Source: Zeaxanthinibacter sp. PT1
GTDB lineage: Bacteria > Bacteroidota > Bacteroidia > Flavobacteriales > Flavobacteriaceae
NCBI RefSeq assembly: GCF_028464225.1
Contig: NZ_JAQPCN010000003.1
Coordinates: 248,001 to 312,000 of the forward strand
Direction: 5' to 3'
Length of the DNA: 64,000 nt
Shown here in pieces: positions 45,600 through 50,748 of the stretch (the first letter of the stretch is position 1; the number at the start of each line of letters is the position of its first letter). The notes below the pieces were generated by a model. The model made no database searches. It had not been told where the DNA came from and worked only from the letters and a program-made list of their open reading frames with translations. The translations under genes and the position numbers were made by a program.

Positions 45600-46412
45600 A
45601 TGAAAAAAACACTATTGATATTAGCGGTGATGTTAACCGTTGTAGCCTGTAAGACCAATCCTTTTACCGGCAAAAAAACATTGAATTTCTATCCTAACAG
45701 CCAGATTTTCCCCATGGCGTTTGCCCAATACAACGAGTTTTTAAAAGAAAATAAGGTGGTAGAGGGAACGGAAGATGCCCGTATGGTGACTAATGTTGGG
45801 CAAAAAATCTCTGCAGCTGCAGAACGCTGGCTGACCGCGAATGGTTACCCGGGTTATCTTAAAGATTACCGTTGGGAATATAACCTGGTCAATGACGAGG
45901 CCGTCAACGCATGGGCAATGCCCGGCGGGAAAATTGTCTTCTATAGCGGGATCATGCCTATTGCCAAGAACGAAGCCGGAGTTGCAGCTATCATGGGGCA
46001 TGAAGTTGCCCATGCACTTGCGGATCACGGGGCGCAACGAATGAGTGCCGGAACTTTGCAACAATTAGGAGCAGTTGCCGGAAATATCGCGATCAGCGAT
46101 CCGGAGAAAAGAAATGTTTTCAACCAGGCCTACGGGGTGGGTTCTACGGTAGGGGTAATGCTGCCCTTTAGCCGGAGCCACGAGACCGAGGCAGACCGTA
46201 TAGGACTACAGATCATGGCTATCGCGGGCTACGATCCTATGGAAGCCGCTGATTTATGGAGGAGGATGAAAGCAGAGTCAGGGAATGCAGCACCGCCCGA
46301 ATTCCTGAGTACCCACCCTTCTAATGATACCCGTATCAACAATATAGAGAAATGGGCGCCCTTGGCTAAGGAAGAAGCACGCAAATTTGGGGTGACATCT
46401 TTTAAATCCTAA
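45600..46412 (+). CDS. M48-family metallopeptidase lipoprotein
   Basis: The 270-residue zinc protease has a lipoprotein signal ending in TVVAC (Cys17). The active site is HEVAH (in AIMGHEVAHAL), and the downstream Glu ligand is in HETEAD. This is the LoiP/YcaL-type arrangement: periplasmic, outer-membrane-attached quality-control proteases. It is followed immediately by a strong hairpin whose U-tract abuts the next start codon. Confidence 0.93.
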   Translation: MKKTLLILAVMLTVVACKTNPFTGKKTLNFYPNSQIFPMAFAQYNEFLKENKVVEGTEDARMVTNVGQKISAAAERWLTANGYPGYLKDYRWEYNLVNDEAVNAWAMPGGKIVFYSGIMPIAKNEAGVAAIMGHEVAHALADHGAQRMSAGTLQQLGAVAGNIAISDPEKRNVFNQAYGVGSTVGVMLPFSRSHETEADRIGLQIMAIAGYDPMEAADLWRRMKAESGNAAPPEFLSTHPSNDTRINNIEKWAPLAKEEARKFGVTSFKS

Positions 46413-46433
46413 TCAGTTTAAAAACGTATATTG

Positions 46434-46463
46434 AAACCGTTTCCAAAAAGAAACGGTTTTTTT
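46434..46463 (+). terminator. Terminator or attenuator directly abutting the next start codon
   Basis: Perfect 10-bp arms AAACCGTTTC (46434-46443) and GAAACGGTTT (46450-46459) enclose a 6-nt loop. The following T-run continues to 46463 and the MFS ATG begins at 46464. It lies 21 nt after the M48 stop. Confidence 0.85.
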
Positions 46464-47789
46464 ATGGCACAGGTTCTGGCTGCGAAAGGAAGTAAAAGAT
46501 TACTTAATGCATGGGCATTTTACGATTGGGCCAATTCGGTGTACAGCCTGGTAATCACCTCTACGATCTTCCCGCTTTTTTACGGGGCCCTTTTCCGGGT
46601 AGCCGGGATAGAGGAAGTGTTTATTTTTGGAGGTTATATTGCCAGGGCTCCCCTCATCAGCTATGTCACTTCTGCCGCATTTCTCTTTATAGCCATCATC
46701 ACTCCTTTTATCGCGGGTATCTCGGATTACTTGGGTAATAAGAGAGGGTTTATGAAATTCTTCTGCTACCTGGGGGGTGTATCCTGTATTGGTCTTTATT
46801 GGTTTGCCCTGGATAATATATACCTGGGCCTGCTCTGCTATTTCCTCGGACTTACGGGATTCTGGGTCAGCTTCGCTATCAACAATTCTTACCTCCCGGA
46901 TATAGCTTACCCTGAGCAACAAGACCGGGTAAGCGCTAAAGGCTTTTCTCTGGGGTATATCGGTAGTGTTATCCTCCTTTTATTTAATCTCGCTATGGTC
47001 ATGAATCCATCCGTATTCGGCATCAGCGGGAGCGGTACTGAAGCCCCTGAACTAGTGGCGATGCGATACAGTTTTATCTCGGTGGGAATCTGGTGGATGT
47101 TATTCAGCCAGTATTCCTTCTATTACCTGCCCAAAGGCAATAAGCGAACAGGCCCTCGCCGGGATGTTTTACTCAATGGATTCAGGGAGCTTAAAGCAGT
47201 CTGGGCCCAGTTGCAGGGATTAGGTGAACTGAAAAGATATCTCCTGGCATTTTTTATATACAGTATGGCCGTACAGACGGTAATGCTGATCGCTGCTTAC
47301 TTCGGAGAAGAAGAAGTGCAATGGGGAACGGATTCTGAACGTACTTCAGGGCTGATCGTAAGTATATTGGTCATACAACTGGTAGCTATAATCGGGGCCA
47401 GTGTTACGGCTTGGGCATCCCGGATTTTTGGAAATATCAGGACCCTTGTGGTGATCAATGGGCTCTGGGTGGTGATTTGTATCTATGCTTATTTTGTAGT
47501 CAGCCCCTTCCAGTTCTACCTTGCTGCAGGTTTTGTTGGCCTGGTCATGGGGGGTATCCAGGCGCTCTCTCGCTCTACCTATTCTAAATTTCTCCCCGAG
47601 ACCAAGGATACCGCTTCATTTTTTAGTTTTTATGACGTGGCCGAGAAGATCGGGATCGTGATAGGTACACTTCTCTACGGCTTGGTGGCTCAACTTACCG
47701 GGAGCATGCGAAATGCATCGGTCTTCCTCGCCCTGTTCTTTATTTCGGGCTTAATTTTACTGCTGCGTGTACATAAAAAAGCCCCCTGA
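46464..47789 (+). CDS. UMF1/Atg22-like MFS transporter
   Basis: The 441-residue protein has about twelve hydrophobic helices. The N-terminal NAWAFYDWANSVYSLVITSTIFP is characteristic of the UMF1 (vacuole effluxer Atg22-like) group; later blocks include SYLPDIAYPEQQDRVSAKGFSLGY and GGIQALSRSTYSKFLP. The substrate is unknown. I take the ATG at 46464 (MAQVLAAKGSKR); the alternative TTG at 46431 would put the terminator hairpin inside the coding region. The 3' end forms part of a second hairpin. Confidence 0.85.
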   Translation: MAQVLAAKGSKRLLNAWAFYDWANSVYSLVITSTIFPLFYGALFRVAGIEEVFIFGGYIARAPLISYVTSAAFLFIAIITPFIAGISDYLGNKRGFMKFFCYLGGVSCIGLYWFALDNIYLGLLCYFLGLTGFWVSFAINNSYLPDIAYPEQQDRVSAKGFSLGYIGSVILLLFNLAMVMNPSVFGISGSGTEAPELVAMRYSFISVGIWWMLFSQYSFYYLPKGNKRTGPRRDVLLNGFRELKAVWAQLQGLGELKRYLLAFFIYSMAVQTVMLIAAYFGEEEVQWGTDSERTSGLIVSILVIQLVAIIGASVTAWASRIFGNIRTLVVINGLWVVICIYAYFVVSPFQFYLAAGFVGLVMGGIQALSRSTYSKFLPETKDTASFFSFYDVAEKIGIVIGTLLYGLVAQLTGSMRNASVFLALFFISGLILLLRVHKKAP

Positions 47790-47801
47790 ACAGGAGGCTT
47801 T
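47778..47801. terminator. Bidirectional terminator between convergent genes
   Basis: AAAGCCCCCT (47778-47787) pairs with AGGAGGCTTT (47792-47801) with one mismatch; the loop holds the transporter's TGA stop. It has A-rich left and T-rich right flanks. Confidence 0.55.
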
Positions 47802-47825: not shown

Positions 47826-48551
47826 TCACGCTTTGGTAATTTCACCGGAACCTGACTTTTTACTGTCAACTTTCTTTGGGTTCCCTTTGTAACGAATATC
47901 GCCGGATCCACTCACATTGGCTTTTAAAGACTTATTGGCTGTGACCTGCACGTCGGCAGAACCCGATACCTGCACTTCAACATCGTCAGCCTCGAGATCA
48001 AACGCATCTAGGTCTCCTGATCCGGACATCCGGATCTCCAGGTCCTTTGTCTTTCCTTTCATGCTTATGGTCCCCGATCCGGACACATTAGATTTCACTT
48101 TATCGGATTCTATTTCCAGTTCAATATCTCCGGAGCCCGATACCGATGTTTCTAATCGTTCCGACTGCAAAACAGTTCTGCTACTGACATTCCCTGAACC
48201 GGACAGACTGATGGCTTCGATGCTTTCTACAGGGATAGTGATCACAATGCCATCCTTCCATTTAGTGGGCTTCAGGTTAACCCCTTTTCGCTCTTTTATT
48301 TTAAGCTCTCCACCGTCTACTTCGGTTTCCACGTATTTCAGCAGATTTTCTTCACCGCGCAGTGTAATTTCACCCTCACGTCCGTTCACCAGCTCTATAT
48401 TGAACCATCCGGAAATAGAAATCTCCTCGTAATCCGCTGTTTCTCGCTCTAGGGTAACCACATTGCCATTACCCTTTATCTTCTTACCCCACTGGGCCTG
48501 CATGCCGTAGCTCGTACAGAGCAATATGGCCATCACTAGTATTCTCTTCAT
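47826..48551 (-). CDS. Exported head-GIN (DUF2807) domain protein
   Basis: The 241-residue product has a signal peptide (about 1-19, ...GMQAQ). The body is a repetitive beta-structure in which SGSG/SGSA recurs about every 17-20 residues (seven copies: SGSGNV, SGSGDI, SGSGTI, SGSGDL, SGSADV, SGSGDI, SGSGEI), the head-GIN pattern of a parallel beta-solenoid. Family members are putative autotransporter-adhesin-like surface proteins. It is the last gene of the sigma/anti-sigma operon, 22 nt from the preceding gene. Confidence 0.85.
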   Translation of the reverse strand: MKRILVMAILLCTSYGMQAQWGKKIKGNGNVVTLERETADYEEISISGWFNIELVNGREGEITLRGEENLLKYVETEVDGGELKIKERKGVNLKPTKWKDGIVITIPVESIEAISLSGSGNVSSRTVLQSERLETSVSGSGDIELEIESDKVKSNVSGSGTISMKGKTKDLEIRMSGSGDLDAFDLEADDVEVQVSGSADVQVTANKSLKANVSGSGDIRYKGNPKKVDSKKSGSGEITKA

Positions 48552-48573
48552 TATTATAGTTGATTAAGACTGT

Positions 48574-49665
48574 TTAATTCTTGTATAAGCGGATTCCTCC
48601 GTAACTACTATTAATATAAACCTTTTTTCCGTTGGTTTCCCGGCCGTAATAGCCCTTGTAATATTTAGAGGCAGAATCCGTCTTCCGTATATCGGTCTCA
48701 AGATCATCCAGGCCTTTTACATCTGCATATTCTGCCGATATTTCGAAATTAAAACTGTACTGGCTGTCATATCCGATTTTAACGCCGGTATAGTCGGAAT
48801 CGATGGAGAGGTTACCGGCATCAGCAGCCATTTTATCTATGGTTATGCCCCCGTAATCTGCGCTGATATCTACATTGCCGTGTACGGTACCCAACTCGAT
48901 CTCTATGTAATCACCACTGCCCTTTACATTCTTCATTTCTTTCACGTCCATATGCCCGTAGTCACAGCTGTATTCAAGGTTTTCCATATTCCCTATCGAC
49001 GCATTGGTATAATCTGCATTAATGGAGAGGTCACCAGCTTTCTCGATGCTGAAACCGGAGTAATCTGCGGAAATGCTCCCGCTGTTGATGTATCCGATAG
49101 TCGACTTGGAAGTGTAATCAAAAGACAACTGGTTCTTTCTTCCCCTGAGCTCACCGATATCTAGCCTGCCGTAATCACAGCTGATCTTTGCGTGCCCGTC
49201 TATACGGTCCAGGGTGATACCCCCGTAGTCATTGCTGAGGTTGACGTTGTGCTTGACCGGTAATTTTATGGTGTAATTTACCTGCATGCTGACGTTCTTA
49301 TTGCCACCCCAATTCCAATTCCATCCCGATTTTCCTTTGTTGAAATGAGTCTTGGCACTGACCATGTCACCGGATTGTTCAAATTCGACAGAGATCTCAT
49401 CCAGCTTCTCCTTCACTTTCTCTTCGTTATCACCATTGGTTTTAATGTGGACCTCGATCTCAATCCTGTCTTCGTTCCAGGAGGTAAGCACGAGGTTACC
49501 GTAGCTGTTATCCACTTTTAATAAACCGCTGGCAGATACATTAAAATCTTTTTTTATGGTCTTTTCCTTGGTATACTTGCCTTTGAGCTCATGGTCATTG
49601 GCCAGTAAGCTGCCCGCAGACAACATACTCATAAGGATTACCAGGTTAAATACTAATGTTTTCAT
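48574..49665 (-). CDS. Exported beta-solenoid protein, DUF4097-like
   Basis: The 363-residue protein has a signal peptide (about 1-22, ...GSLLAN). From about residue 120 it shows repeated short units around DYG or DYT (SNDYGGITLD, SCDYGRLDIG, SADYSGFSIE, SADYGGITID, SSYGGIRLYK), predicting a right-handed beta-solenoid like DUF4097/GIN proteins. The function is unknown; surface location is inferred. Its start overlaps the anti-sigma 3' end by 20 nt, so it is part of that operon. Confidence 0.78.
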   Translation of the reverse strand: MKTLVFNLVILMSMLSAGSLLANDHELKGKYTKEKTIKKDFNVSASGLLKVDNSYGNLVLTSWNEDRIEIEVHIKTNGDNEEKVKEKLDEISVEFEQSGDMVSAKTHFNKGKSGWNWNWGGNKNVSMQVNYTIKLPVKHNVNLSNDYGGITLDRIDGHAKISCDYGRLDIGELRGRKNQLSFDYTSKSTIGYINSGSISADYSGFSIEKAGDLSINADYTNASIGNMENLEYSCDYGHMDVKEMKNVKGSGDYIEIELGTVHGNVDISADYGGITIDKMAADAGNLSIDSDYTGVKIGYDSQYSFNFEISAEYADVKGLDDLETDIRKTDSASKYYKGYYGRETNGKKVYINSSYGGIRLYKN

Positions 49666-50209
49666 ATTCGTCCGTATTAAAGTTTTTGATCATTTCAATT
49701 TGTTCTTGTACTTCTTTAAGCAACTCTATCCGTGTCTGGAAATTTGTGATCATTGCACTGAGGATCAGTTTGCTGTTTCCCCCGTTCAATAAGTCATTTT
49801 CCATCCTCGTGTAATCATCTTCCAGGATTTTTAATTGGTTAAGGGCGTCTTCAAGAACTTTGTTGGTCAGCGGAGAATCCTCTGCTCGTAAGATCTTTAC
49901 CTGTTCCTCTATAAGGCCGGTGAAATAAAGGTTAGTCTGCGAGATCTCCGGTGAAATCCGGGCCACCTGGTCTTGCACGTTAGCTTGGGGGTAAAATGAC
50001 AGGTAACCCAGGGTAAGGAACAGGAGCAGAGCCGCTGCCGCAGCATAAGGCTGCCATAGGCTGAACAGGGATAGCCCTGATCCTTTCGGCTTTTGCTCTG
50101 CCTTAAGTTTGGCCATAAAGCGTTCCTCGTGTCCTCTTTGGGGCAATTCTGTATCAAATTTGCCTTGCAGGGATTTAAAGAGCTCTTCTAAATTTCTTTC
50201 TTCGTTCAT
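49646..50209 (-). CDS. Putative membrane anti-sigma factor
   Basis: The 187-residue protein starts at 50209 (MNEERNLEELFKSLQG); the ATG shares one base with the sigma-factor stop (TGATG), which indicates translational coupling. An N-terminal cytoplasmic part (about 1-45, including the LPQRGHEERFMAKL helix) is followed by one transmembrane helix (about 52-72) and a periplasmic coiled-coil-like domain. The order sigma, single-pass membrane protein supports an anti-sigma role, although no zinc HCC motif is present. Confidence 0.78.
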   Translation of the reverse strand: MNEERNLEELFKSLQGKFDTELPQRGHEERFMAKLKAEQKPKGSGLSLFSLWQPYAAAAALLLFLTLGYLSFYPQANVQDQVARISPEISQTNLYFTGLIEEQVKILRAEDSPLTNKVLEDALNQLKILEDDYTRMENDLLNGGNSKLILSAMITNFQTRIELLKEVQEQIEMIKNFNTDEYENISI

Positions 50210-50748
50210 CAGTTCAGCTTTAATAATTTTTTTCTCAGGCTTTCCTTGGCTCTGGAAATGGTAGTCCTGCAATTGGCATAACTGATATCCATTATGCTGC
50301 AGATCTCCTCGTAATCATAACCCTCTATGAGGTGTAAGGTCAAAGAAATCCGGTAATTGTCTTTTAACCCTTGCATGGCGGCCAGTACCTTTTGAGCCTT
50401 CAGTTCTGATTCCTCATGCTCGGGGACGTAACCTTCATGATCTTCGACCTTATACAGTACCTCGTCAAGTCTGATTTCACCGGATTTTTGATTTTTCCGG
50501 TAGTAGTGAATACTCCTGTTGATCACGATCCGCTTTAACCAGGCTCCGAATGTCACTTCACCTCTAAAAGTGTGTAACTTGGTAAATGCCTTTAAAAACG
50601 ATTCCTGCATAATATCTTCAGCGTCCTCACTTTTCTTTACAATACGCAATGCTACGTTATACATCGCTTTATAATAGCGCCTGTACAGTTCCATTTGTGC
50701 CGCCTGGTCACCTTCCAGGCATAATGGTACTAACGTTTCCGTATGCAT
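50209..50748 (-). CDS. ECF-type RNA polymerase sigma factor
   Basis: The 179-residue protein has sigma region 2 (about 10-80, AEDIMQESFLKAFTKLHTFRGEVTFGAWLKRI) and region 4 (about 120-175, LIEGYDYEEICSIMDISYANCRTTISRAKESL). The ATG at 50748 (MHTETLVPLC) is preferred over an in-frame TTG at 50763, because a -7-like sequence covers the TTG. It heads a four-gene operon with its putative anti-sigma and two beta-solenoid proteins, which are probable targets or sensors of the same envelope response. Confidence 0.9.
   Translation of the reverse strand: MHTETLVPLCLEGDQAAQMELYRRYYKAMYNVALRIVKKSEDAEDIMQESFLKAFTKLHTFRGEVTFGAWLKRIVINRSIHYYRKNQKSGEIRLDEVLYKVEDHEGYVPEHEESELKAQKVLAAMQGLKDNYRISLTLHLIEGYDYEEICSIMDISYANCRTTISRAKESLRKKLLKLN

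Follow-up and report, generated by a model that had tools for sequence, protein, structure and literature searches.

In the Bacteroidetes, the −7 promoter box is described as TAnnTTTG at positions −12 to −5 (sections of PMC9723704 and PMC6847099), and an alternative motif, SM5, reads TAnnTTGY (a section of PMC9723704). Intrinsic terminators join a stem-loop to a U tract at a gene's 3′ end; in transcription attenuators, a terminator lies upstream of a gene. The present study concerns a locus in a 64,000-nucleotide stretch of Zeaxanthinibacter sp. PT1 (hereafter the window), in which a T-tailed hairpin separates an M48 peptidase gene from the start codon of a UMF1-type transporter gene. Our comparative analysis indicates that, most probably, this hairpin is the intrinsic terminator of the M48 gene and overlaps the transporter's own promoter, and that its abutment on the start codon reflects genome compaction and no conserved switch. 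The features of the locus are as follows.

45600..46412, + strand: M48 peptidase gene, the one that the hairpin would end (Pfam Peptidase_M48, E 6.3e-35; open reading frame)
46427..46434, + strand: candidate −7 box of the transporter promoter, TATATTGA (from the recurrence of TAnnTT in M48-linked loci)
46434–46443, + strand: left arm of the terminator stem, AAACCGTTTC (sequence and fold)
46439, + strand: predicted transcription start (G), if the box spans −12 to −5 (from the box position and sections of PMC9723704 and PMC6847099)
46444–46449, + strand: loop, CAAAAA (sequence and fold)
46450–46459, + strand: right arm of the terminator stem, GAAACGGTTT (sequence and fold)
46457–46463, + strand: U tract of seven T, the first three also paired in the stem (sequence)
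46464..47789, + strand: Atg22/UMF1-type MFS transporter gene, ATG at 46464 (Pfam ATG22, E 1.9e-75; start position kept in relatives)

The original prediction described a perfect 10-bp stem with a T run through 46463, followed directly by the transporter ATG at 46464, and the sequence is exactly so; a G46433–U46460 wobble could add a further pair. For the 30-nt hairpin the folding energy is −11.3 kcal/mol, a level reached by 1 of 200 shuffles, whose mean is −4.0; its 61-nt context gives a z of −3.14 (2 of 200 shuffles). It begins about 20 nt past the M48 stop codon. Both marks of an intrinsic terminator are found, namely a stem-loop with a U tract (46434–46463) and a position at the 3′ end of a gene, here M48, with which the hairpin is associated. 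The T-tailed hairpin finder of this study lists it, and a simple hairpin scan omits it, probably because the extended stem shortens the T tail that is counted. Rfam yielded sub-threshold matches alone, and one of these, RgsA (E 3.6), overlaps the hairpin. A coding frame through the hairpin, from a TTG at 46431, is open here, but the hairpin–ATG distance is variable among relatives, and a coding role was therefore rejected.

The transporter likely starts at ATG 46464, as judged from the reading frame and its relatives: this is the sole in-frame ATG, GTG or TTG between the TTG at 46431, on the hairpin edge, and the conserved NAWAFYDW motif, and an in-frame ATG lies 36–45 nt 5′ of that motif in 108 of 110 loci (duplicates included). 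The transporter of Zeaxanthinibacter enoshimensis, of the same genus, is 92% identical, and in that species (L031) the hairpin region does not differ from that of the window. At the other end of the gene, a hairpin at 47778–47801 with its T run on the minus strand lies between the convergent transporter and head-GIN (DUF2807) genes; Rfam matches there were sub-threshold only (for example, Phe_leader). Four genes are consecutive on the minus strand of the window (47826–50694): the DUF2807 gene, two that have no Pfam match and a member of the sigma-70 family, which has regions 2 and 4 and is, by our reading, of ECF type.

Transporter loci were collected from 60 relatives and from named genomes (80 matches, the best of 579), so that close relatives are over-represented. 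M48 was located by tblastn, with some M48 ends resting on matches that stop 12–19 residues short, and a T-tailed hairpin was sought in the 130 nt 5′ of the transporter start (for L171–L179, no more than 378–444 nt of upstream sequence is covered). L030, which gave no transporter start, was dropped, and collapsing identical upstream regions left 120 unique loci, 99 of which have the M48–transporter pair, in a sample weighted toward close relatives. Where M48 is the neighbour, 73 of the 99 loci have a T-tailed hairpin no more than 30 nt from the transporter start; where it is not, none of the 21 does, the 21 including L045, where the contig ends 120 nt 5′ of the start and a hairpin is not judgeable, and L093, where M48 lies 1168 nt off. 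Anywhere in the 130 nt, the corresponding counts are 83/99 and 4/21, and by genus, among the whole-genome relatives, the near hairpin occurs in 19/26 linked and 0/13 unlinked cases. Many unlinked loci belong to more distant relatives, so shared ancestry contributes to the association, and related loci do not count as independent. The 73/99 versus 0/21 split bears out the earlier placing of a terminator after M48, termination itself being a prediction. The stems drift in sequence: counted outward from the loop, each of positions 1–8 shows 5 or 6 kinds of base pair (72 loci with a perfect stem of at least 7 bp). Since these stems were picked for perfect pairing and read from the loop without alignment, this demonstrates drift and is not a covariation test.

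Conservation of the hairpin–ATG spacing had been put forward as a check of the original prediction, and the spacing proves not to be conserved: the stem ends 2–85 nt from the ATG across the sampled loci, and thus the exact abutment is not a kept feature. TTTT stands directly 5′ of the start codon in 14 of the 99 M48-linked loci, with the stem no more than 6 nt away in 11 of these 14. The 11 comprise three loci from the window's genus, two from Robiginitalea (L077 and L087), one from a Eudoraea metagenome-assembled genome (L071) and five of other genera; elsewhere in Eudoraea and Robiginitalea, the spacing is wider or the finder detects no hairpin.

The abutment can also be set against terminators elsewhere in this genome, sampled over 464 kb (the window and 20 further stretches, L141–L160), in which a simple codon-usage caller gave 366 approximate gene calls and 91 T-tailed hairpins were found. 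By these approximate calls, the sample contains 21 terminators between same-direction genes; the present stem alone comes within 10 nt of the following start, and the next-closest stands at 14 nt. T runs that pass directly into an ATG are found at 11 of the 69 nongenic terminators with a readable T run in the sample, this hairpin included, and over the same stretches ATG follows 8 of 73 T runs in terminator tails, compared with 33 of 1459 T runs elsewhere between genes. A ready-made ATG is therefore common at the terminators of this genome. The abutment would be a product of genome compaction. Any triplet beginning with AT follows 26 of the 73 terminator T runs and 194 of the 1459 others.

The transporter probably has its own promoter, to judge from a box at 46427–46434 that is the sole TAnnTT in the 60 nt 5′ of the window ATG. 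Of 82 loci, the 15 with long hairpins were left out of the box test. Among the 67 short-hairpin M48-linked loci, 53 have a TAnnTT that begins 10–28 nt upstream of the loop centre, with a peak at 18–22 nt, against a mean of 17.6 and a maximum of 29 loci over 500 mononucleotide shuffles; 14 of the 67 lack it. No such box occurs in that range at the six solo M48 genes with a downstream hairpin. At gene ends of this genome, it is present in the same range in 2/23 convergent and 5/21 same-direction cases (this locus included), numbers too few to tell whether terminator–promoter overlaps are common.

The window box has two mismatches to TAnnTTTG, at the last two positions. The full consensus appears in 1 of the 53 boxes, TAnnTTnG in 21 and TAnnTTG in 18, one or other of the latter two forms accounting for 38/53; the TAnnTTG boxes resemble SM5 as given in part of PMC9723704, differing from it at the last base in most. 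TTTG is not enriched at −33 in the 53 box-aligned loci, so the −33 element of sigma-A promoters is not seen there. Matches to sigma-70-type promoters were set aside, that consensus being wrong for this phylum. Because the −7 box is imperfect, the promoter assignment is probable, not proven. In 16 of the 99 M48-linked loci no terminator was detected; in L013, L015 and L048 a hairpin lies more than 100 nt upstream, and L090 has a hairpin whose T tail is poor. Three of the 16, L036, L070 and L073, in which no hairpin was detected, carry TTGTATCTT, which would give leaders of 24–31 nt; many hairpin loci have TTGTATATT. TATCTT preceded by TTG is confined to these 3 of the 16, and the other 13 have no TAnnTT there or one lacking that TTG.

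If the box spans −12 to −5, the M48 transcript and the transporter transcript would share the hairpin unequally. The M48 mRNA would carry it in full and end at the T run, and the −7 box would overlap the 5′ edge of the terminator, with the transporter transcript starting near 46439, inside the left arm. The predicted leader is 25 nt, in which a weak stem remnant of 5 bp is worth −3.7 kcal/mol versus −11.3 for the full hairpin; the median leader in F. psychrophilum is 24 nt (a section of PMC9723704). Of the 53 box loci, 52 have their predicted start within the stem-loop; among these 52, the leader has a median of 35 nt, and the median folding energy weakens from −14.55 to −5.45 kcal/mol. With its start inside the stem, the transporter mRNA would thus include only part of the hairpin. 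In the window's predicted leadered mRNA, pairing of early codons with the U tract and start region does not exceed the shuffle level (z −0.58). If −12 is taken as the box start in every locus, T occupies +1 in 21/53 loci, which counts against this placement; the window has G there. The −3 base is T in 45/99 and A in 30/99 M48-linked loci, with T in the window; A is the favoured base there according to a section of PMC6847099, a further point against the model.

Two groups of relatives are built otherwise. In the Flagellimonas/Muricauda-type gap, a palindrome replaces the short hairpin (L033, L039, L042–L044, L046, L047, L054, L055, L059, L060, L068, L081, L082 and L099). It is long in most cases, its arms resemble TGTCATTTC...GAAATGACA, and its motif matches at most twice per locus, as expected of one copy; Flagellimonas-type loci, with this different, long palindrome, were left out of the box test. 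An Aequorivita-type terminator, ATCCCGC...GCGGGAT, is found in L009, L091, L092, L095, L097, L101, L105 and L106. The seven named Aequorivita loci have a different hairpin followed by TAGATTAG or TAGTTTAG, for leaders of 19–28 nt, which suggests that the Aequorivita-type promoter lies after the terminator and not across it. TAAATT is the box in 6 of the 53 box loci. Four of these six are of Aequorivita type (L097, L101, L106 and L009, the last also standing for its identical twin L092); they were counted for a TAAATT on the 5′ side of the hairpin and have their promoter placed elsewhere.

Other readings of the hairpin were weighed against these data. The M48 and transporter genes might form one operon, with the hairpin a partial internal terminator setting the transporter level, an attenuator of the kind that the original prediction had proposed. 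The frequent retention of the pair would fit such an operon, albeit in a set biased to close relatives, as would the restriction of the near-start hairpin to loci where the pair is kept. Against it, a promoter-like box recurs between the two genes, some M48–transporter pairs have no hairpin, the same finder detects T-tailed hairpins downstream of 6 of 12 solo M48 genes, with no transporter adjoining, and Rfam returned nothing above threshold. The hairpin goes with the adjacent M48 gene at a variable distance from the transporter, and we regard attenuation as unlikely.

The other two alternatives concern the transporter start itself. A leaderless transporter mRNA with its promoter hidden in the hairpin would accord with a T run that reaches the ATG, and leaderless mRNAs do occur in flavobacteria (5.5% in F. 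psychrophilum, according to a section of PMC9723704). The recurring box, however, implies a leader of at least 22 nt in the 53 box loci, and the window offers no second TAnnTT nearer its ATG. This reading is accordingly very improbable; its idea of a promoter overlap was nearly right, the box lying at the 5′ edge of the stem, and its leaderless part fails against a predicted leader of about 25 nt. The least probable account, that the hairpin gates translation by hiding the initiation region, draws on a read-through message, where 4 nt would separate the 10-bp stem from the AUG. The AUG is outside the stem, its distance ranges widely in relatives, and the predicted transporter mRNA begins inside the hairpin and lacks half the stem, so that the hairpin-gated start first envisaged finds no footing in these loci.

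A terminator overlapping the next gene's promoter would have consequences beyond this locus. Where a gene's own promoter overlaps the stem of a hairpin lying at its start codon, that hairpin can be harmless, since the gene's mRNA would then start inside the stem, and this calls for caution with attenuator predictions in compact Bacteroidetes genomes. More speculatively, and we think it rather doubtful, the M48 terminator and transporter promoter may be one fused element kept in many Flavobacteriaceae, with putative promoter occlusion at the terminator: RNA polymerase halting there would cover the transporter start site, and M48 transcription would repress transporter initiation. If true, such interference would provide a simple coupling of neighbouring genes. 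A narrow literature search, which supports no claim of absence, found no report for flavobacteria of a terminator overlapping a downstream promoter or start codon.

Collectively, the locus is close to three described systems and departs from each. It resembles the intrinsic (Rho-independent) terminator in its GC-containing stem, short loop and T run soon after a stop codon, and differs in that the T run touches the start codon of the next gene. With the transcription attenuator it has in common a terminator upstream of a gene; in contrast, the hairpin here goes with the upstream gene, and neither an antiterminator nor a leader peptide was noticed on unsystematic inspection. Finally, the candidate promoter shares with the Bacteroidetes sigma-A (sigma-ABfr) promoter, TAnnTTTG, the TA and TT core and a placement suited to a short leader, and differs from it in the last two positions (TATATTGA) and in its overlap with a terminator stem.
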